Shown one piece after another: positions 35,988 to 45,069 of a stretch of 64,000 bases of DNA. The notes beneath the pieces are model-generated. The model was not told the DNA's origin. It saw only the letters and a program-made list of their open reading frames with translations, and did no database searches. Made by a program: the position numbers and the translations under genes. Numbering within the stretch: the first letter of the stretch is position 1; every line of letters starts with the position of its first letter. Source of the DNA: Kordia algicida OT-1 (GTDB taxonomy: Bacteria; Bacteroidota; Bacteroidia; Flavobacteriales; Flavobacteriaceae); assembly GCF_000154725.1 (NCBI RefSeq), contig NZ_DS544873.1, positions 3,113,397 through 3,177,396 on the forward strand. Reading direction: 5' to 3'.

Positions 35988-36548
35988 TTATTTGATTTTT
36001 TTAAGAAGTATGACACCAAAACCGATAACCACATAAAGTAAGCCAAGTCCAATATGCATAAATTTTATAGAAGCTGTAGCAAATGCTAAAAGTGTCCAAT
36101 GTTTCTGTAAATCACCATAAAACAACTGAAGCAACGCAAAATTTTCCACCATATCCAAAAATCCTGCAAACATGGTCATTCCAATTAAAACTGTTCCCAA
36201 GCGATATGCCAATGCTGTCGAATTGTCTGCGACATGTTTTCTAACTAAATGAATAAGTAAAGAGAGGAACATCACATATGTAATGATAAAAATATAATCG
36301 AACCACAAACTCCATTCTGCAGCTTGCAGCGCACCTTCTTTTTTTTGCCATGACATTAAAATATCCTGGCTACATTTAAGTGTACTCGATAATTCAAAAG
36401 AGATAATTTTATTAGGCGCAAAATCAGTTTTTAAAAATCTATCGAAGTACAGCATGCAACTTCCTGCCAACATAAAAGTAGTAATTGCCAAGAACAATAA
36501 TTTCTTTTCGGAAGATTTGGAAAGTTTTTGAAAAGTAGACGATAACAT
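35988..36548 (-). CDS. Four-helix membrane protein of unknown function
   Basis: 186 residues with hydrophobic helices at about 18-35, 83-104, 117-140 and 158-182. Between helices 1 and 2 there is an external loop (FAPNKIISFELSSTLKCSQDILMSW) with one Cys. No family is recognised. The gene abuts brnQ with no intervening base, so it is probably translated with it, but no transport role can be deduced. It is divergent from the hydrolase at 36597. Confidence 0.82.
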   Translation of the reverse strand: MLSSTFQKLSKSSEKKLLFLAITTFMLAGSCMLYFDRFLKTDFAPNKIISFELSSTLKCSQDILMSWQKKEGALQAAEWSLWFDYIFIITYVMFLSLLIHLVRKHVADNSTALAYRLGTVLIGMTMFAGFLDMVENFALLQLFYGDLQKHWTLLAFATASIKFMHIGLGLLYVVIGFGVILLKKIK

Positions 36549-36584
36549 TTTTAACGAATGGTTTTACAGCTAACGAAAGATACA

Positions 36585-36592
36585 TATTTTTG
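36585..36592 (+). promoter_or_regulatory. -7 element placed for a nearly leaderless mRNA
   Basis: TATTTTTG matches TAnnTTTG exactly and ends only 4 bases before the ATG at 36597. If used, transcription would begin at or next to the start codon. No clear TTG -33 element is present. Confidence 0.4.
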
Positions 36593-36596
36593 CGAC

Positions 36597-37379
36597 ATGC
36601 AACAGTTTGTAACATATAAAAATATAGAAATTGCGTATTCGGTTTCTGGCAAAGGAAAAGCGCTTGTGTTATTACACGGTTTTCTGGAAACGAGTTCCAT
36701 GTGGAAAATTTATGTGGACACTTTTTCTAAAACACACAAAGTCATTACGATAGATTTGTTAGGTCATGGAAAAACGCCATGTTTGGGTTACATTCACACG
36801 ATGGAAGAAATGGCAGAAACGGTTTTTGTGGTGTTGAAAGAACTCAAATTGCGTAAAATTCATCTAGCAGGACATTCTATGGGCGGTTATGTAGCGTTGG
36901 CTTTCGCCGAAATGTACCCTGATTATGTAAAAGCTTTGTGTTTGATAAATTCTACTTCGAGAGCTGATAGTGAAGAACGAAAAGTGAACCGTGATCGTGC
37001 TATTAACGCCGTAAAACACAATCACAAACAATTTATTCGTATTTCAATTTCAAACTTATTTCGACCAAAAAATCGTAAAATCTTCGCAGAAACTATCAAA
37101 GAAGTCAAAAAAGAAGCCTTGACAACTTCATTACAAGGAATTATAGCGGCTTTAGAAGGTATGAAAATTCGGGAAGATCGTGAAGTGTTGTTGCATTTTT
37201 CGCCATATAAAAAAATGATGATTATTGGAAAACGCGATCCAATTTTAGCTTTTGAAGATTTAATAGATCAAACTAAAAACTCAGAAGTTGATGTCGATAT
37301 TTTTCCTGACGGACATATGAGTCATATAGAAAATGAAGAAGATTTGTTATTTTCTTTAAAAAAATTTGTAGGAAATTAA
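36597..37379 (+). CDS. Alpha/beta-fold hydrolase
   Basis: 260 residues from MQQFVTYKNIEIAYSVSGKG at 36597; an upstream in-frame ATG at 36558 is possible but adds residues not typical of the family. Motifs: oxyanion LLHGFLETSSMW, the strand DLLGHGKT, nucleophile elbow AGHSMGGYVAL (Ser about 98), an acid near GKRDPILAFED and the base His in DGHMSHIENEE. It resembles haloperoxidase/epoxide-hydrolase-type cytoplasmic esterases; the substrate is unknown. It is divergent from the brnQ operon. Confidence 0.9.
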   Translation: MQQFVTYKNIEIAYSVSGKGKALVLLHGFLETSSMWKIYVDTFSKTHKVITIDLLGHGKTPCLGYIHTMEEMAETVFVVLKELKLRKIHLAGHSMGGYVALAFAEMYPDYVKALCLINSTSRADSEERKVNRDRAINAVKHNHKQFIRISISNLFRPKNRKIFAETIKEVKKEALTTSLQGIIAALEGMKIREDREVLLHFSPYKKMMIIGKRDPILAFEDLIDQTKNSEVDVDIFPDGHMSHIENEEDLLFSLKKFVGN

Positions 37380-37624
37380 TTTAACTTCTCTAAAATCTAT
37401 CACAATAAAGCTCCTTTAAGAAGTAAACTGAATATGCAAGTAAGAAATTACTTTTTTCTTTTTAAGATTTTAAATTTATCTATGAAAGAATCTATTTTTA
37501 AAACTACCATTCAACTTTTAAAAACGTGTCGTTCGTCTAAAAAAAGAGTCTTTTCGTCGGATTTATTATTCGGTTTATGTATATTAGTTGTGTCCAAAAA
37601 TAACTATTTAACCTACTTACCGCC

Positions 37625-37864
37625 ATGGATCATACGAGTATAAAAACTACTTTTTCCTTAGGGAAATTATACTGCAGCATTTTCGGTCATCGTTATCGAG
37701 TTACGAAAAAAATCACTTCACATGTAAACGAATACCAATGCATGCTTTGCAATTGTGAAGCCACCAATGATGACAAAGGGGAATTAACATCATTGACACC
37801 TCAACTTAAAGACATTAATAAAACTTTGGTTTCTTTTCATAAAAAGAAAAATCACGCTTTTTAG
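37625..37864 (+). CDS. Small zinc-ribbon-like protein
   Basis: 79 residues. The pattern CSIFGHRYRV ... YQCMLCNCEATNDDKGELTSLT places Cys and His before a CxxC pair (Cys19, His23, Cys39, Cys42), as in small DUF1660-like zinc proteins, and similar short proteins occur in Flavobacteriaceae. No signal peptide. It stands alone between a hydrolase and a repeat region. Function unknown; zinc binding is inference. Confidence 0.7.
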   Translation: MDHTSIKTTFSLGKLYCSIFGHRYRVTKKITSHVNEYQCMLCNCEATNDDKGELTSLTPQLKDINKTLVSFHKKKNHAF

Positions 37865-38182
37865 ACGACTTAGAATTAATGTAGCAATTTGAAAGTTTGG
37901 AAATGTTGTAATTAGTTTCAAATAATGATCTCAGAAACAACCTTGAATCATTGAATTTTTAAATCCTTGAATTGAGTGAAGCGAAAAAATAGGCATTAGC
38001 TTTTGGGTATTAGGTATTGGTCAAGTTATAAGAGTAATTGGAAATTCAAACTAAAATATGAACATACTTTGAGCGACAGCGATACTTAAATTTTAATGTG
38101 GCAATTAGTTTCAAATAATGATCTCAGAAACAACCTTGAATCTTTGAATTTTTAAATCTTTGAATTGATGAGCAAAGCGAAT
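37865..38182. repeat. Gene-free stretch with a 66-base direct repeat
   Basis: Two copies of a 66-base sequence beginning AATTAGTTTCAAATAATGAT lie at 37910-37975 and 38103-38168 and differ at two positions. Each contains internal TTGAATC/TTGAATT units about seven bases long. Between them are a GGTATTAGGTATTGG stretch and a TTGAGCGACAGCGATAC fragment of a dispersed repeat. No gene is seen. Confidence 0.85.
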
Positions 38183-38806
38183 CTATTCTTCCATCTGCTT
38201 CAAAATTTCCTCCAACTTCCGAACATGCACACCATACAATTGATCTGCCCATTTTACCGTGATGTAGTAAATACATACACAAGAAACCAAATATCCAAAA
38301 ATGACCAATAGTAATGTTGATGTTGGCATTTGCAACAAAAACCATTCTGAGAAACGATCTGCACCACGATGCTCAACACCCATAAAGATTGCCGCTACCG
38401 AAATTGGTAACAACAACGAACCTGCAATGATTCCCGTTTTGTAGACTTCCATTGTCAATTTTATGTCATGGATAAATCGTAAAATAGTTTCCTTTGTTTG
38501 TTGTGCCACACTTGAGGTTCGGCGTAAAAACCAAACCATTTTTGCCAAATATCCCAAGGTCATTAAACTCGTGACAAACATGAGAATTAAATATACAGCA
38601 CGTGGCAATTCATACATTTTTACCAGCGCAGGAAATGCGAAAAATATAACGATTCCTGTCAATTGCGTGGCAATTTCACCTTTCATCGTCTTACGGATTT
38701 TGGCAATTGGCATTTGACTTTCTTTTAAATCTTCTAAACTGCTTGGCAACTGAAAATCATCTTGATTCTCATCATCCATCAATTCTTTTATTTTATCAAA
38801 ATCCAT
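38183..38806 (-). CDS. Membrane protein encoded after an ECF sigma factor (possible sigma regulator)
   Basis: 207 residues. A charged cytoplasmic N-terminus of about 45 residues (DDENQDDFQLPSSLEDLKES) is followed by hydrophobic segments at about 49-68, 70-92, 120-140 and 155-178, and a charged coiled end. The gene overlaps the sigma-factor gene by 11 bases, which points to translational coupling and a regulatory relation such as anti-sigma. It shares layout with the membrane protein at 1-462, including the basic loop after helix 2 (VWFLRRTSS versus VLFWRTPND), though overall similarity is weak. Confidence 0.82.
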   Translation of the reverse strand: MDFDKIKELMDDENQDDFQLPSSLEDLKESQMPIAKIRKTMKGEIATQLTGIVIFFAFPALVKMYELPRAVYLILMFVTSLMTLGYLAKMVWFLRRTSSVAQQTKETILRFIHDIKLTMEVYKTGIIAGSLLLPISVAAIFMGVEHRGADRFSEWFLLQMPTSTLLLVIFGYLVSCVCIYYITVKWADQLYGVHVRKLEEILKQMEE

Positions 38807-39299
38807 GGCTTTGTTTTTTTATAATTTCTTTTAATTTTTTCTTCGTTCGATTCAGTTTTACGCGAACATTTACTGGTGACATTCCTAAGTTTTTGGCAAT
38901 TTCTTCTCCCGAAAAACCTTCTATAAACTGAAAAATTAGTGCCTTTTCTATTTTATTTAACTCATGTACAGCTTTGTAAAAAGCCTTCAATTGTTGTTCT
39001 TTTTCATCCGAATAATCTTCCTGTGCCAATTGTACATGTTCTGGCATTTTGTAGTTGTCAGGCTTCCGCTTTTCTTTCTTAAAAAATACAATTGCCGTAT
39101 TGAGTGCTACCCGATACATCCAACTCGAAAACTGACTTTTTCCATTGAATGATTTGACAGATTTCCAGAGTTGCAAGATAATTTCTTGTACCAAATCTTC
39201 ACGGTCTGCCGCATCTTCAAAGTAGATGCGGGAAACCTTGTGAATGATTCCTTTGTGAATCGTGATTTTGTTTAGAAATTCTTGTTCTGTAAGTTCCAA
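38796..39299 (-). CDS. ECF-type RNA polymerase sigma factor
   Basis: 167 residues. Region 2 is at about 25-85 (YFEDAADREDLVQEIILQLWKSVKSFNGKSQFSSWMYRVALNTAIVFF). Region 4 is at about 110-160 (ELNKIEKALIFQFIEGFSGEEIAKNLGMSPVNVRVKLNRTKKKLKE). It is preceded at 10 bases by a TraB/GumN-family gene and overlaps a membrane-protein gene by 11 bases, an arrangement closely parallel to the operon at 1-1852. Regulon unknown. Confidence 0.94.
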   Translation of the reverse strand: MELTEQEFLNKITIHKGIIHKVSRIYFEDAADREDLVQEIILQLWKSVKSFNGKSQFSSWMYRVALNTAIVFFKKEKRKPDNYKMPEHVQLAQEDYSDEKEQQLKAFYKAVHELNKIEKALIFQFIEGFSGEEIAKNLGMSPVNVRVKLNRTKKKLKEIIKKQSHGF

Positions 39300-39309
39300 A
39301 GAGTTGCTT

Positions 39310-40161
39310 TTAGTGTACTGGAGTTACTTTATAACCTTGTTTGCGTAATAAATGAATCACGCCGTTATTACCTACTAAATGTGCTGATCCAACAGCAAAT
39401 AAATTACTTTGTTTCTTCATAAGATCAGGCATCAACTTTACCCAATTTGTGTTGCGATAAGTTAGCATCCAATATTCGGCATTTTCGTTAAAAAAACGTT
39501 TGTCATTCATCACTTCAAACAATGCTGTAATGTTTTCGTTTTTATAGTTGGTTACCATTTCTTTAAACATGAGTTTGTATTCTTGATGCAATTCAATTTG
39601 TTGCCATAAAAAATCTTTTGGATAGGCTTTTGCAAAATAATCCAATTGATTGTCTAAGGTTTCCAAACCTGCAATTTTTTTGTGTTGCGCTTTCGCTAGA
39701 TTGATTAATTCAAACTCGTACATTTTTTTTGTAGGACAGTTCAAACTCTGCTGAATCAATAATGTATAAACGGTCATCAAGGTATAATTGTCAACCATTT
39801 GTAACGACATATTCATTTCTTTCTTTAGCAAGTTGTCTAAGTATATTTGTTGTTCTTTTGATAATTCTTCCGTTAATTTCCCTGAAGACATCATTTTTTG
39901 TTGTGCTGCCATCAGTGCTTTTGTATCAGATAAATCTACTTCCAACACTAAATTTTCAGTTTTGTTAAAAGCCTTTGTGACTTTTTTAGGAATTGAAAAA
40001 TCATCTTCACATAAAATATGAACCGTTCCAAGAAGATACGATGGCTTTGCCAAGTCTTTATGTTCAATTTTCCACAATACGGAGTTTTCAAGTTTCTTGT
40101 CTTGTGCATTTCCTATAAAACTGCTTACGATAAAGCCAATAAGTATGATTAGTTTTTTCAT
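39310..40161 (-). CDS. TraB/GumN-family protein
   Basis: 283 residues with a signal peptide (1-19, ending IGNAQ). Typical TraB/GumN motifs are LLGTVHILCEDD near residue 45, LVLEVDLSDTKAL near 75 and the ending FAVGSAHLVGNNGVIHLLRKQGYKV. The family has an erythromycin-esterase/ChaN-like fold, with histidines and acidic residues proposed to bind metal and cleave peptides; in Bacteroidota it is usually exported. It is the first gene of an operon with an ECF sigma factor and membrane protein. Its role in the signal pathway is unknown. Confidence 0.9.
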   Translation of the reverse strand: MKKLIILIGFIVSSFIGNAQDKKLENSVLWKIEHKDLAKPSYLLGTVHILCEDDFSIPKKVTKAFNKTENLVLEVDLSDTKALMAAQQKMMSSGKLTEELSKEQQIYLDNLLKKEMNMSLQMVDNYTLMTVYTLLIQQSLNCPTKKMYEFELINLAKAQHKKIAGLETLDNQLDYFAKAYPKDFLWQQIELHQEYKLMFKEMVTNYKNENITALFEVMNDKRFFNENAEYWMLTYRNTNWVKLMPDLMKKQSNLFAVGSAHLVGNNGVIHLLRKQGYKVTPVH

Positions 40162-40352
40162 GTTTTTTGTTTTTACGATGTATCATCATGCTGAACTTGA
40201 TTCAGCATCTTACTAGCTAGCCTAAGATCCTATATGTTTTTTAGGATGATAATAGATCAATTAATTTCTATTTGCTCCGTAAGTATCGACTTTAAAAATA
40301 TGTTACAAAAAAAAGATGAAATTTATTTTTTTTCTTTTATTCAGAAAGCTTC

Positions 40353-40393
40353 TCGTAATTTATAAATGGCGATTCGCTTTTTATAAATTACGA
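40353..40393. promoter_or_regulatory. Perfect 14-base inverted repeat upstream of the RiPP precursor
   Basis: TCGTAATTTATAAA (40353-40366) and TTTATAAATTACGA (40380-40393) are exact reverse complements around a 13-base spacer. The centre is about 95 bases before the precursor start and about 45 bases before its -7 element. Both flanking genes point away, so it is not a terminator of either; an operator or regulatory hairpin is more likely. Confidence 0.7.
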
Positions 40394-40416
40394 ACACCTA
40401 TGGTTTTTTAAAACCC

Positions 40417-40424
40417 TAATTTTG
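40417..40424 (+). promoter_or_regulatory. -7 element of the RiPP precursor gene
   Basis: TAATTTTG is an exact TAnnTTTG match, giving an mRNA leader of roughly 35-40 bases before the ATG at 40468. No clear TTG is seen about 19 bases upstream, where the palindrome ends, so an activator may be needed. Confidence 0.5.
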
Positions 40425-40467
40425 AGTTAATTGCATCAAAAATTAATTCATTAAAAACATCATAATT

Positions 40468-40662
40468 ATGAAAAAACAAACATTAAAAAACTTGTCTTTA
40501 AACAAAAGGGCAATTTCTAAAATTAACTCTACTGGAGTTCAGGGTGGTTTGCATTCAGGATTGGAAGTTACCTGTCCAAATTTTTGTAGAGTAACCAAAG
40601 ATGATGGAGCATTATGTCAGTTTACAAAAGATGGTGGTCCTGTTTGCCAAAACAATAAATAA
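40468..40662 (+). CDS. Orphan GG-leader RiPP precursor, class I lanthipeptide-like
   Basis: 64 residues. The leader MKKQTLKNLSLNKRAISKIN has the L-x-L-N-K-x-x-I-x-x-L-like pattern of Bacteroidota class I lanthipeptide precursors and ends at a double glycine (Gly26-Gly27, VQGG). The 37-residue core has Cys36, Cys40, Cys50 and Cys60, with Thr35, Thr43, Thr53 and Ser30 as possible dehydration sites. The core holds two ten-residue units, C-R-V-TKDDGAL and C-Q-F-TKDGGPV, closed by a final Cys. No LanB, LanC, protease or ABC exporter gene is in the window, so modification would have to occur in trans. Other GG-leader peptides remain possible. Confidence 0.8.
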   Translation: MKKQTLKNLSLNKRAISKINSTGVQGGLHSGLEVTCPNFCRVTKDDGALCQFTKDGGPVCQNNK

Positions 40663-40677
40663 TTCTTTTTTTATAGA

Positions 40678-40918
40678 AAAAACGAAGCTGTTTAAAAAGT
40701 GTACTGAAACGTCATTCTGGACTTGATACTGAAATAAATTCAGCACAGGTTCCAGAATCTTATCATATTGATTTTCAACTGTTATGAGAAACTGAAATGC
40801 TTGCATTCATGAATACCAAATTATCAAATAGATATACATGAATAATCAAGCTTGTCTTGAGCGACAGTCGAAAGGTTGGGTTTGACGAAATCTGTACTTT
40901 TTAGACAGCTTCGTTTTT
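40678..40918. repeat. Long-range inverted repeat interrupted by palindromes
   Basis: AAAAACGAAGCTGTTTAAAAAGT (23 bases, 40678-40700) matches the reverse complement of 40896-40918 at 22 of 23 positions. Joined, they would form an ordinary bidirectional terminator between the convergent precursor and RidA-like genes. The 195 bases between them hold a GTCATTCTGGACTTG...CCAGAATC palindrome (about 40711-40760) and a TTGAGCGACAGTCGAAAGG fragment, as if short repeats had inserted in the loop. Alternatively the whole is a MITE-like element. Confidence 0.75.
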
Positions 40919-40940
40919 GTATCTATATTTTTGGTTAAAA

Positions 40941-41420
40941 TTACTTTGCGGCAATCACATCAATTTCAATTTTTGCTCCTATTGCCAATCCGCCAGCAGC
41001 AAATGTTGTACGTGCAGGTTTGTTTGGAAAATACTGAACGTACACACTATTAAAATCTTTAAAATCGTTGATATCTGCTAAAATCACTGTGCATTTTACC
41101 ACACGATCCAAAGAAGAATTGTGTTGTGCTAAAACCGCTTTGATGTTTTCAATGGCTTGTTTCGTCTCTGCTTTGATGCCGCCAGCAACTAACATTCCTT
41201 TTTTATGATCTTTTCCTATTTGACCAGATAAGAATAACAGATTTTCTGTCTCTACAGCGGCACTAAAAGGCGTATTTTGACGTTCTGCTAAGTGTGAAGC
41301 GTGAAATGTAATGTCATTACTTTTGTTGTCGTTAGTATTATTGTTGTCATTATTATTGGAAGTTTGACAACTTACCAAGCATAGTAACAATACCGAACAA
41401 AGGGAAAAGATGATTTTCAC
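40941..41420 (-). CDS. RidA (YjgF/YER057c)-family lipoprotein
   Basis: 159 residues. The lipoprotein signal ends in CLVSC (Cys18), followed by an Asn/Asp-rich linker (about 19-38). The RidA domain starts near FSAAVETENLLFLSGQIGKD and ends PARTTFAAGGLAIGAKIEIDVIAAK. The family's substrate Arg lies in the KPARTTF segment, so imine or enamine deaminase activity is possible. RidA proteins are usually cytoplasmic; attachment to the envelope is unusual but recurs in Bacteroidota. Confidence 0.9.
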   Translation of the reverse strand: MKIIFSLCSVLLLCLVSCQTSNNNDNNNTNDNKSNDITFHASHLAERQNTPFSAAVETENLLFLSGQIGKDHKKGMLVAGGIKAETKQAIENIKAVLAQHNSSLDRVVKCTVILADINDFKDFNSVYVQYFPNKPARTTFAAGGLAIGAKIEIDVIAAK

Positions 41421-42023
41421 AAGATTGAGTTTTTGGTTGGTAACAAATTTAAGGAATTTACACTTCGACTCCGCTTAGTGCAAGACTTATATTTGATTTT
41501 CCGAATTTGATTAGATTGCTCAATTTAACGTCAGTTCGATATAAATCATTCAATTTACATTTATAGTAATTTTAGAAATAATTCTTCTATATAATTCATT
41601 TTTAGCGCTTTATTTTCGTTTTCTTTGCTTACCCAAAGAATACTGAATCAAGTTCAGCACAGGCATCAACAAAAGAAAGGGAACTTTTAGTTCGTATGAT
41701 TTCTATTTTCAATTATGGAACTCATGAATCTTCGATTTCCAGAGGTATTTTTAGTTTTTCTTTTAGGGAAAAACTAAAACCGCATGAATTTTTCTAAATT
41801 TTAGTTCACCATGCTCTATTTTCTGTTATGGAGTTCATGAATTAACATTTCTCCAAGGTTTCGAAAATTTTTAACGAAAAACTCCTGCTATACTGCGGAA
41901 AAGAAAAGTTTCAAACTAAAATTTTTACGTCGAACTCACGTTAATTTAAAAAAGAGTTTCTCGAGAAAAGGTCTAAAAGCAAAACGATCTAATATCTAAC
42001 AGCGAAGCAGTTTAACATCTATA
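41421..42023. repeat. 603-base gene-free region rich in repeats and hairpins
   Basis: No gene is supported. A CACTTCGACTCCGCTTAGTG fragment is at 41461-41480 and a TACTGAATCAAGTTCAGCA palindrome at about 41641-41659. A perfect 12-base hairpin TTTTAGTTTTTC (41749-41760) / GAAAAACTAAAA (41768-41779) could terminate the operon ending at 42024. Two 27-base direct repeats CTATTTTCnnTTATGGAnnTCATGAAT lie at 41703-41729 and 41816-41842 (23 of 27 identical). A GTCTAAAAGCAAAACGATC fragment is near 41970. Confidence 0.7.
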
Positions 42024-43286
42024 TTAGAAATACTGACCAATTCCAAAGACAATTCCGCGACTTGCATTTTTGGTAATTCCGTATCCGTAATCGATTCGGA
42101 AAATGGCATTAAAAATTCGCTTGTGAATGAATCGCAAGCCAACTCCTGGATAAATTCTAAAATTGTCACTGTCTGCAAAATCACTAAAATTGCCTCCTGG
42201 ATTTCGCCAAGTTCCTGCATCTATAAATCCGTTTCCTTGTAAGATAAACCAGCCTTTTTCATATAACGTGTAGCGATATTCTGAGTTCAGCACCAAACTT
42301 GCTGTTCCACGATCAATAATGTTTCCAACACCACGAATGTTTAAGTTATTGTCTACCGAAAATGGCGCAAATGGACTTGCGTTGTTGGAAGCTACTCCAA
42401 AACGAAAGCGATTTGCCCAGTTTCCTTTTTTGCCAACTCGCGCGAAGTATAAAAAGTCGCTCCAACCAATGAGGAAGTTGTCTTGAAAATTATTTTCTGT
42501 CGTTACGTATTGCAAATAGAGTGTATTTTTGGTGCCTTCTATGTATTGGTAATCGTAGTTCAATCCGTCGTATTCGTAGACAAATTTTAGCATTTGTTTG
42601 TCTAGTTTTAGGTTTTGTGGAATGGACTCTGAAGTCAAGCCATTTAAATAATTGTATTCTTCGGTAAAAACGTTGATTCCGAATTGCAAGCGATGTTTGA
42701 AATTTATTTGATACAACGCCAATACTTCAAACGCAGTATTGCTGTATTTGTAGTTTGCCGAACCATCATCAAAGAATAAAGGTTCTTCACTTGTCCAATT
42801 TTGATGATTGATGGCAATTCCCAAGCTTCGTGTAAACAGGTTTGGCGCACGCAGATTGATTCCGTATGAGTCAAATCCGTTATTTTGGTAAAATCCGCCA
42901 AAAGCGATATTTCTCCCTAAAAAATTATAGTCGTACAGTCCAATTTTATACGCAACTTGTTCATTAGTTGTCGTCCACAAATTTGCATTTGGAATAAGCG
43001 TAAAGTTTTCTTCTATATTGTAAAATACATTGTACAGATTGTCATGCGATTTAAATACTTGATAATACGCATGTGAAACTCCTGCCAAACGTTTCAGCAG
43101 AATGACATCTTTTTCTAGTTGAAGCGAATCTAACACATCACCATTTCGAACACTGACATATTTTTTTAGAAAACCAACTTTGTTCTTTTTTTGTCCCTGA
43201 AATTTGACATCATAGACGATATTGTCTTGCGCAATTCCCTGAAAGGCAACACATAAAAATATAAAAAGTAGTCGTATTTTTTTCAT
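42024..43286 (-). CDS. POTRA plus beta-barrel outer membrane protein (BamA/TamA-like)
   Basis: 420 residues from MKKIRLLFIFLCVAFQGIAQ at 43286 (signal peptide 1-20). One POTRA-like domain (about 25-95: VYDVKFQGQKKNKVGFLKKYVSVRNGDVLDSLQLEKDVILLKRLAGVSHAYYQVF) precedes an Omp85-type 16-strand barrel with repeated aromatic beta strands and a terminal Phe (GIVFGIGQYF). It is shorter than BamA, which has five POTRA domains, so it is probably a dedicated transporter or assembly factor. It starts 2 bases after the lipoprotein gene and is the last gene of an operon with a GH113-like enzyme. Confidence 0.88.
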   Translation of the reverse strand: MKKIRLLFIFLCVAFQGIAQDNIVYDVKFQGQKKNKVGFLKKYVSVRNGDVLDSLQLEKDVILLKRLAGVSHAYYQVFKSHDNLYNVFYNIEENFTLIPNANLWTTTNEQVAYKIGLYDYNFLGRNIAFGGFYQNNGFDSYGINLRAPNLFTRSLGIAINHQNWTSEEPLFFDDGSANYKYSNTAFEVLALYQINFKHRLQFGINVFTEEYNYLNGLTSESIPQNLKLDKQMLKFVYEYDGLNYDYQYIEGTKNTLYLQYVTTENNFQDNFLIGWSDFLYFARVGKKGNWANRFRFGVASNNASPFAPFSVDNNLNIRGVGNIIDRGTASLVLNSEYRYTLYEKGWFILQGNGFIDAGTWRNPGGNFSDFADSDNFRIYPGVGLRFIHKRIFNAIFRIDYGYGITKNASRGIVFGIGQYF

Positions 43287-43288
43287 AG

Positions 43289-44053
43289 CTATTGAGCCAC
43301 AAAGATATCTTGAATTACTGTATTTACCCAATTATCAGCACTAACATCCATTAACGTAAACTTATAGGAGTTGTTAATTGTCAGATCAATAGGGTTTTCT
43401 TCCGAAATATTAAGCACCACATTTGAAGTGTCGTAATATTGAAATTTATTCTCGTTAGTGTATGTTCCTGATAGCAGTCCGTTGTCAACTGTAGAAACTA
43501 TTTGAAAGTAAATAGCGTTGTCGCCATTTGTGTTGTGTTCCCATGAAAATAATGGCATTTTAGAAGTTTCCTGATTGATTGTTATTTCATTCGTCCAGAC
43601 TGTCGGCTTTGATATATTTTTGGTTCGAATCGGATTGGAAAGTTTGATTTCATCATTTAATTCATACGTTACAATAACCCATTGATCTTCTCCAAAAGAA
43701 CGCGTAAATTGCTCGATATAACCTTCAAAAAGTGGTGTCGAAGTAATTGCCAAGCGTCTGTAATTTGTATAATCATTTTTGTCAACGTTAGCAGTATTTG
43801 TTTCAAAAAACTGAACATTACTTGCACCTTCTTCCAAATAATAATACACATTTACTATATCAGAATTGTTTGCATCACTTGCCGCACAAGCAATGACAGC
43901 ACCAGTTTCCACCGTGCGATTTGCAATAATATCTGATAGCTTTTCGGTATTTTCTAAGTTGATTACAGCTTCAGAATCATCTGATTGACATGAACTGATT
44001 GCAAAAAATAATAGGATGCAAGTGCTAAATTGTATTATTTTTAATGTGTTCAT
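43289..44053 (-). CDS. Lipoprotein of unknown function in the glycosidase/barrel operon
   Basis: 254 residues. The lipoprotein signal ends in FAISSC (Cys22). The mature part lacks membrane helices and recognised domains and appears beta-rich, possibly immunoglobulin-like at about 150-254. One Cys pair is plausible near residues 22 and 56. It lies 11 bases after the GH113-like gene and 2 bases before the POTRA-barrel gene, so all three are co-translated. A role in presenting or delivering substrates to the barrel protein is inference. Confidence 0.82.
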   Translation of the reverse strand: MNTLKIIQFSTCILLFFAISSCQSDDSEAVINLENTEKLSDIIANRTVETGAVIACAASDANNSDIVNVYYYLEEGASNVQFFETNTANVDKNDYTNYRRLAITSTPLFEGYIEQFTRSFGEDQWVIVTYELNDEIKLSNPIRTKNISKPTVWTNEITINQETSKMPLFSWEHNTNGDNAIYFQIVSTVDNGLLSGTYTNENKFQYYDTSNVVLNISEENPIDLTINNSYKFTLMDVSADNWVNTVIQDIFVAQ

Positions 44054-44064
44054 TCGTTATTTTT

Positions 44065-45069
44065 CTATTGATGTAATTTGTATGTTTCTCTAACAATTTT
44101 TTCCGCCGGTTTGTTTTGTGGTGTAAAGTAAAAATCTTCCAATCCACCAGATTTTTCATAGTTGTGAAACCACTTCCAGATAAATCCGCCAGCAAACCAA
44201 TCTTCTTTCCAAAACTCATTATACAACGCTTGCAAGGCAATTTCTTGCGCTTTTAAATTCAATACTTTTCCTTTTCTATTGGAATCCCACGGTTCTTTTC
44301 CTGTGTATTCTATGCTGCGATATCCGTATTCGGTAAAGAGAATTTTTCGATCTACTTTTTTAGATAAATTCACTATTTTATCTTTATGCGATTGCCAGCC
44401 TTTTTGCAAACTTTCCAGCGTTGGTATTTTTTCTTCGCTGAGCGGAAAATACGCGTCAATTCCTATAAAATCGAGTTGCTTCCAAAACGGAACTTTTTCA
44501 AATGAATCCCAATTTTCTGCATAGGTCAATTTTCCTTTATATATTTTTTTCACTTTCGTGATAAGTGCATTCCAAAATTCAGGTCGTGCTGCAACAAACG
44601 TGTGCAATTCGGTTCCAATACAGAACATTTCTGCGTCAATTTCTTCTGCCAAACTCGCATATTCGAGGATGAAACTTTCGTAAGAAGCTTCAAATGCTTT
44701 CCAATCGGTTTCGTTTTCCATCGAAATTAATCCTGTAAATTCACCATTCCAAACCCAAATTTGCGGTTTCACCATGATGTTAATGTTGTTTTTTTGTAAA
44801 AGTTCTGCATATTGCTTTGCTCCTTTTCGTGTTTCTCCAAACCATTGTCGGTCTGTATTGTGAACCACTTCTGTTCCGTTTAATTTCCGAAGAAATCCAA
44901 AAGGCATTACCGCAGCGTAATTTGCATGTAATTTTACAACAGGATCTACATGATTTTGATTGATAGGATTTGGCGCCGCTACATAACTAACACCATTTAT
45001 TTTTTGTGCTTGACTCGTACATGAAAATTGTAAAAAGCCAAAAAATATACAAAGGAGTCTAAGTTTCAT
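44065..45069 (-). CDS. GH113-like glycoside hydrolase lipoprotein
   Basis: 334 residues. The lipoprotein signal ends in FLQFSC (Cys17). The catalytic domain is a TIM barrel of the type annotated as GH113 (beta-mannanase-like): GVSYVAAPNPI, KPQIWVWNGEF, the acid/base Glu in EMFCIGTELHT, LDFIGIDAYFPL, and the nucleophile Glu in ILFTEYGYRS, ending with GGFIWKWF. Substrate specificity cannot be inferred. Exported to the envelope; its operon partners are a lipoprotein and a POTRA-barrel protein, so it may process a glycan at the cell surface. Confidence 0.88.
   Translation of the reverse strand: MKLRLLCIFFGFLQFSCTSQAQKINGVSYVAAPNPINQNHVDPVVKLHANYAAVMPFGFLRKLNGTEVVHNTDRQWFGETRKGAKQYAELLQKNNINIMVKPQIWVWNGEFTGLISMENETDWKAFEASYESFILEYASLAEEIDAEMFCIGTELHTFVAARPEFWNALITKVKKIYKGKLTYAENWDSFEKVPFWKQLDFIGIDAYFPLSEEKIPTLESLQKGWQSHKDKIVNLSKKVDRKILFTEYGYRSIEYTGKEPWDSNRKGKVLNLKAQEIALQALYNEFWKEDWFAGGFIWKWFHNYEKSGGLEDFYFTPQNKPAEKIVRETYKLHQ

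Follow-up and report, generated by a model that had tools for sequence, protein, structure and literature searches.

A predicted class I lanthipeptide precursor of Kordia algicida that shares its leader with many scattered genes and probably depends on a distant LanB/LanC enzyme set

Identification of the precursor gene

Analysis of the window (the whole 64,000-nucleotide stretch of the Kordia algicida OT-1 genome under study) and of related genomes suggests that a small gene within it, hereafter the query, quite likely encodes one of the precursors in an extensive class I lanthipeptide system that spans the genus; this assignment comes from sequence comparison. More than 100 scattered precursors, the query among them, are probably processed by one distant enzyme set. 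The original prediction of a class I lanthipeptide-type precursor which is modified in trans is well supported, as LanB, LanC and C39 genes occur about 262 kb away. The peptide alone is one more member of a known precursor type, and it is the genomic arrangement that varies.

The precursor gene is located at 40468-40662 on the plus strand, starts with ATG and codes for 64 residues, and it was recognized both as an open reading frame (ORF) and through the leader family in its own genome. Direct reading of the sequence agreed with the frame that had been described, including Cys at positions 36, 40, 50 and 60. The leader (residues 1-27; 40468-40548, plus strand) contains LxLxKx5I (L9, L11, K13 and I19) and ends in GG at residues 26-27, the double-Gly site that had been noted. 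It is also of the Bacteroidota type that had been claimed: LSLNKRAISKI fits a relaxed form of LxLxKx5L, in which Ile replaces the final Leu, and is followed by GG26-27. The core (residues 28-64; 40549-40659, plus strand) contains four Cys and four Ser/Thr, and S30, T35, T43 and T53 are the sole Ser/Thr behind GG. Of the 333 frames in the window that start with ATG and are 35-130 aa long, one (40468-40662) combines leader, GG and two Cys, and 40 order-2 Markov copies of the same sequence contain no such frame. NCBIfam model NF038153 (lant_leader_L1a) scored the query peptide at 21.3 bits (E 2.3e-4; cut-off 22), and Pfam gave no family match up to E 10, nor was a Nif11-type leader found.

Two similar Thr-Lys-Asp units had been noticed in the core. 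These units, residues 41-50 (RVTKDDGALC; 40588-40617, plus strand) and residues 51-60 (QFTKDGGPVC; 40618-40647, plus strand), match each other better than was seen in all of 500 core shuffles (500/500), and 17 of 30 bases are identical between them. T43-C50 and T53-C60 are equally spaced, and two like-shaped rings in the query core are plausible.

Unit 1 is conserved in core relatives from three other species, L094 (in G005), L095 (in G001) and L098 (in G003), which are 62%, 52% and 52% identical to the query core over 21-23 residues, with E values, calculated for a small set made up of the own cores and these three, of 1.2e-8, 9e-6 and 9e-5. These relatives retain Ser/Thr ahead of the first Cys, the first two Cys themselves, T43 and C50, and the L098 core has one extra residue inserted before the first Cys. 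Unit 2, which repeats unit 1, is absent from the three relatives and was found in the query only. The relatives share one common locus, beside a gene pair other than the TraB-RidA pair that flanks the query. For L094 and L095, dN/dS was 0.161/1.159 overall and about 0.11 (0.112/1.008) within the Cys region; judged from this one pair with high dS, their core is under purifying selection. Repeated cores were also observed elsewhere in the genome, in L086 (4172761), L091 (4848292), L037 (270667) and L085 (4159040), e.g., with CPIDTRx or CPPQTNG units, and a repeat at p < 0.01 was present in 8 of 83 cores tested, with Gly-rich runs counted.

A common leader on unlike cores

The query had been described as an orphan. 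This is correct locally, in that no modifying gene lies beside it, but not genome-wide, since it is one of about 130 genes with this leader. Other peptides with this leader, a search for which had been proposed, were indeed found: a profile of 52 own leaders identified 133 places at E up to 0.01 in the own genome, which is one 5.03-Mb contig. In ten other species of the genus, the same profile and threshold gave 115, 126, 146, 146 and 149 matches and, in the remaining five, at least 150 each; these matches were counted without one-by-one inspection, and first-look candidates numbered up to 421.

With matches accepted up to E 10, NF038153 marked 97 places in the own genome; 18 of those with E up to 0.0016 were over the cut-off, alone or with neighbors, and so was one more at 0.0025. 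At a limit of E 0.2, each genome of the genus had 53-110 matches to this model. Removal of 5 non-precursors and 2 places without an in-frame start reduced the 97 places to 90, and removal of one partly masked place and two without GG/GA left 87 for leader and core statistics. The leaders had a mean identity of 47.0% over 600 pairs, compared with 23.6% after shuffling. The corresponding values for the cores were 23.5% and 22.1%, i.e., the cores showed no agreement. Cys accounted for 11.3% of core residues and occurred in 1 of 87 leaders. The relaxed motif was fitted by 85 of the 87 sister leaders and the strict LxLxKx5L by 64. A leader HMM with a limit of E 1 added 31 ORFs from the own genome, of which 22 were taken into the pairing test described below, the rest being weaker or not fitting the GG pattern. 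A 400-kb control stretch contained one precursor, a count that is no density estimate because the stretch was chosen to avoid known precursor loci.

A single LanB and its co-occurrence with the leader

The prediction depended on the presence of a dehydratase in the genome. LanB, LanC and a C39 exporter were located about 262 kb from the query, and the PF04738 match at this distance is the only one in the own genome. In this lan cluster, HMMs identified LanC (405 aa), LanB_N (759 aa), LanB_C (304 aa), HlyD and a C39-ABC transporter, and the cluster also holds a regulator with TPR and HTH_18 (581 aa) and two leader-type precursors. LanB matched 9g04 (E 4.9e-51) and NisB (E 5.9e-24) and keeps RxxxRxTPFGLF, with RMSSRCTPFGLF aligned to RMSMRPTPFGLF; the Arg and Thr of the aligned motif are presumably catalytic residues in NisB. 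Comparison of LanC with 8byk showed that WCYG and CHG, whose residues we take to be the zinc ligands, are kept. PF04738 (LanB) and PF14028 (Lant_dehydr_C) are present once each in all 11 genomes (own and ten species). LanC, LanB and LanB_C are contiguous in all 11, with the C39-ABC gene located, according to the coordinates, 6-9 kb on.

In a family sample of 149 genomes, one per genus, LanB was found in 15 and, with a limit of E 0.01, the leader in 8. The leader occurred in 7 of 15 genomes with LanB versus 1 of 134 genomes without LanB, the lone exception being a 500-aa frame (Fisher 1.7e-7, and 1.5e-6 once the own genome is left out). LanB alone is no predictor of the leader, because 8 of the 15 LanB genomes had no leader match. 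Own genome aside, LanB genomes with the leader had 1-3 matches each, and therefore the expansion looks genus-specific within this sample. On the basis of the co-occurrence, we infer that one LanB serves so many unlike cores.

The route via the lan cluster is not unique, because beyond this cluster the own genome has another two LanC-like genes and additional C39 genes. A stand-alone LanC-like gene of 426-427 aa, located 69 kb upstream (G000:C1:3084392-3085447), is kept in 10 of 11 species, and in five other species it occurs on the same contig as the TraB ortholog, about 11-27 kb from it. At L049, a 393-aa LanC-like gene (G000:C1:1589636-1590730) lies between precursors at 1588398 and 1591698, with no LanB adjoining. 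LanC domains in frames of 974-982 aa, which is LanM size, were observed in three of the ten further species, at G001:C34:229372, G004:C2:129796 and G006:C5:128579. No LanM was detected in the own genome as judged by the length of LanC-like frames, which at 356-426 aa are too short.

Pairing of Cys with upstream Ser/Thr

Lanthionine is formed when Cys attacks a dehydrated Ser/Thr, and in most known lanthipeptides this residue is N-terminal to the Cys. In the pairing test, each Cys was given a different Ser/Thr 2-12 residues upstream, and the sample consisted of the 87 precursors above and 22 identified with the leader HMM (109 in all), 107 of which have Cys. In these 107 own cores, 466 of 472 Cys were paired upstream, compared with 337 when the direction was reversed, 344 +/- 9.4 (maximum 373) in shuffles and 358 +/- 9 after permutation of C/S/T labels. 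Every Cys was served in 102 of 107 own cores versus 15 reversed and 32.5 shuffled, and the result was alike under other distance limits. The 55 cores examined from other species behaved in the same way (212 of 216 Cys served versus 142 reversed and 155 shuffled), and 166 random small ORFs showed no asymmetry (293 versus 292 of 453). In the query core, 4 of 4 Cys have their own upstream Ser/Thr, as ring closure would demand. We consider that nothing else in the data argues as strongly for these peptides being lanthionine substrates as the pairing asymmetry does.

The site of the query gene and its turnover

As had been noted originally, nothing RiPP-related is found nearby: no RiPP gene adjoins the query, and LanB and LanC are not in the same cluster with it. 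The query is flanked by two minus-strand genes, TraB/PrgY/gumN and Ribonuc_L-PSP (RidA-type), and no tRNA is present in 36000-45000. A close TraB ortholog (69-79%) was detected in 8 other species. The TraB-RidA spacer contains a precursor in 4 of 9 species (the own genome, G009, G001 and G006), and their cores are unlike; the spacer peptides of G001 and G006 are alike and neither resembles the query. Spacers without a precursor measure 189 bases in G002, 149 in G004 and 172 in G008, and those of G005 and G007 contain other coding remains. No RidA was detected in the stretch examined from G001. The G004 and G006 sequences are 99% identical over 101 bases and divergence begins at the G006 precursor segment. 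This breakpoint and the presence of a precursor in 4 of 9 species indicate that precursor genes come and go at one site. We also looked for an ortholog of the query at its own site, which was rejected, the core being absent from the TraB-RidA spacer of other species.

Directly 3' of the gene lies a 241-bp inverted-repeat element (40678-40918) with 23-nt arms (96%). It is a dispersed, MITE-like element, because similar pieces recur in the own loci L059 and L060 and also in L094 and L123 of other species. A 3' flank common to the query and L094 was set aside as a candidate, since this element accounts for it.

Upstream of the gene, a 41-bp palindrome (40353-40393, no strand assigned) has 20-nt arms that are 90% complementary, two TTTATAAAT half-sites and a DNA fold z of -6.2. 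It is a possible operator of element class c2, the basis for which includes enrichment of this class. In addition, TATGG-N10-CCCTA (40399-40418, plus strand) starts 69 bp before the ATG, at the position of TAnGG-N5-CCnTA in sister genes, to which it bears a weak likeness, the spacer being 10 here.

A possible pathway and its alternatives

In the pathway that we propose, the LanB/LanC pair of the distant cluster would bind the common leader and LanB would dehydrate core Thr/Ser through glutamylation followed by elimination. Thioether rings would then close from each Cys to an upstream Ser/Thr, in the simplest case S30-C36, T35-C40, T43-C50 and T53-C60, and the second T-C unit, which copies the first, would contribute a further ring of equal size. 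The C39 domain of the exporter would cut after GG27, and a polycyclic 37-residue peptide would leave the cell. We infer modification, cleavage and activity of the query peptide on these grounds; our guess is that the product might be used for antagonism or signaling towards other bacteria or algae.

It is quite unlikely that the peptide is exported through C39 undehydrated, as a Cys-rich linear or disulfide-linked peptide sharing only the double-Gly leader. Such leaders also serve unmodified peptides, C39-ABC genes exist beyond the lan cluster and no modifying gene is near the query. However, disulfides do not require strictly upstream Cys-Ser/Thr pairing, and co-occurrence of the leader with LanB would not be explained in this way. 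Modification by some other enzyme, for example one of the stand-alone LanC-like proteins with an unrecognized partner or a radical SAM (rSAM) enzyme, appears very improbable to us. It would be consistent with the conserved 426-aa LanC upstream of the query (10 of 11 species) and the 393-aa LanC beside other precursors, as well as with Kordia rSAM clusters and a LanC with nucleotidyltransferase named in PMC11118758; however, LanB is single, and an rSAM motif scan of the ORFs of 59 own precursor loci yielded two only, KamA- and BioB-like by context.

The turnover of precursors with unlike cores at the TraB-RidA site, which is occupied in 4 of 9 species, raises the question of whether the query belongs to a mobile repertoire as an idle or decaying copy from which no peptide is made. 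We regard this as unlikely. The promoter of the query gene is putative, but the frame is intact with four Cys and four Ser/Thr all present, the core resembles conserved relatives in three species, and a long palindrome lies upstream.

Relation to known systems

Read as a class I precursor modified in trans, the query resembles Bacteroidota class I precursors (NF038153) in leader type, GG end, Ser/Thr/Cys core and the presence of LanB/LanC/C39 in the genome, but differs from them in its location away from LanB and in belonging to a scattered group of about 130. An LxLxKx5L leader with GG and C39 was described for Bacteroidetes class I LanAs (PMC7268733), and double-Gly leaders are stated for Bacteroidales RiPPs and bacteroidetocins (PMC10352776). 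The mining range in the former study was seven genes on either side of LanC and, for this reason, unclustered precursors would have been missed. Class I LanB/LanC from Chryseobacterium OV715 and Runella limosa gave thioether rings after E. coli expression (PMC9993889); phylum and enzyme class are as here, whereas these are clustered, single systems. Ocean mining revealed up to 176 predicted precursors per Bacteroidota genome, with Kordia as a RiPP-rich example (PMC11118758); unlike the present work, the available part of that paper does not describe the one-LanB link, the pairing test or the site turnover. A lanthipeptide cluster was reported by antiSMASH in Kordia antarctica (PMC7477175), and a family-wide study found Kordia to be rich in clusters (PMC10734526). 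We found no report of one LanB for scattered class I precursors at such a scale in the open-access literature, subscription papers being mostly outside this search.

The genome layout observed here fits that of the prochlorosins and synechococsins of picocyanobacteria (ProcM, SyncM), in which one promiscuous enzyme acts on scattered precursors with a constant leader and a variable core. ProcM has 29 substrates and SyncM has 79, one strain with two enzymes has 143, and the function of prochlorosins is stated as unknown (PMC10783134; prochlorosins are also reviewed in PMC12328550). However, prochlorosins are class II, with one LanM and a Nif11 leader, whereas the Kordia system is class I, with split LanB + LanC and a 27-residue leader. 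Going further is speculative, and we consider it rather unlikely that Kordia represents a larger-scale class I prochlorosin counterpart. In such a counterpart, one LanB/LanC/C39 set would serve well over 100 scattered, fast-changing precursors; dedicated TPR-AraC regulators and several fixed upstream elements would keep groups; turnover of promoter, leader and core at fixed sites would give every species a peptide set of its own, acting as species-specific signals or weapons; and the TPR regulators may read the peptides.

If processing by one enzyme set is true, a single class I dehydratase would handle more than 100 unlike natural substrates, which would make it a natural library and a tool for cyclic peptides, and the prochlorosin strategy would have arisen twice, with different enzymes. 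The strong rule that Cys pairs with upstream Ser/Thr allows rings to be predicted, in a form open to testing, in about a hundred peptides. The upstream elements and regulators described below offer handles on the timing of peptide production, a question common to prochlorosins.

Upstream elements and regulators of the precursors

Several elements were more frequent upstream of precursors than in controls: TAnGG-N5-CCnTA at -75 to -64 (14 of 89 own precursors versus 0 of 257 controls; 1 of 51 in other species), TTYATRAA at -100 to -65 (20 of 89 versus 9 of 257; 6 of 51 in other species) and TGGGTAA (5 of 89 versus 0 of 257; 0 of 51 in other species), although p-values for them are overstated because the element windows and TGGGTAA were picked after the sites had been seen and related copies are non-independent. 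The case for TAnGG-N5-CCnTA is that its position is fixed (in the 14 precursors and no control), as its likelihood in an EM search was not above control (113.2 versus 115.3 for the best control set at width 16, and 161.6 versus 162.1 at width 28). One promoter for all precursors was also rejected, since exact k-mers gave weak signals only. The Bacteroidota -7 box TAnnTTTG was not enriched upstream of precursors (11 of 89 versus 53 of 257 controls).

TPR-HTH_18 (AraC-type) homologs were found near precursors, accounting for 10 of 210 ORFs within 1.5 kb, at distances of 34-168 bp, versus 1 of 250 farther ORFs, this one a frame of 113 aa, and none of 327 ORFs in control stretches (Fisher 7.3e-5 versus controls). 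The scan of neighbor genes covered 116/130. Nine of the ten homologs are 561-611 aa long, and the ten include the lan-cluster regulator itself. They lie beside precursors at ten loci of the own contig (G000:C1), including L079, L073, L076, L065, L050, L056, L078, L035 and L044; no TPR-HTH_18 neighbor is present beside the query. At L073, 1.5-1.8 kb left of the window, there are two precursors (3111574 and 3111774) with near-identical leaders and a third leader-like ORF (frame from 3111185), and all three are located behind a TPR-HTH_18 regulator at 3109414-3111105.
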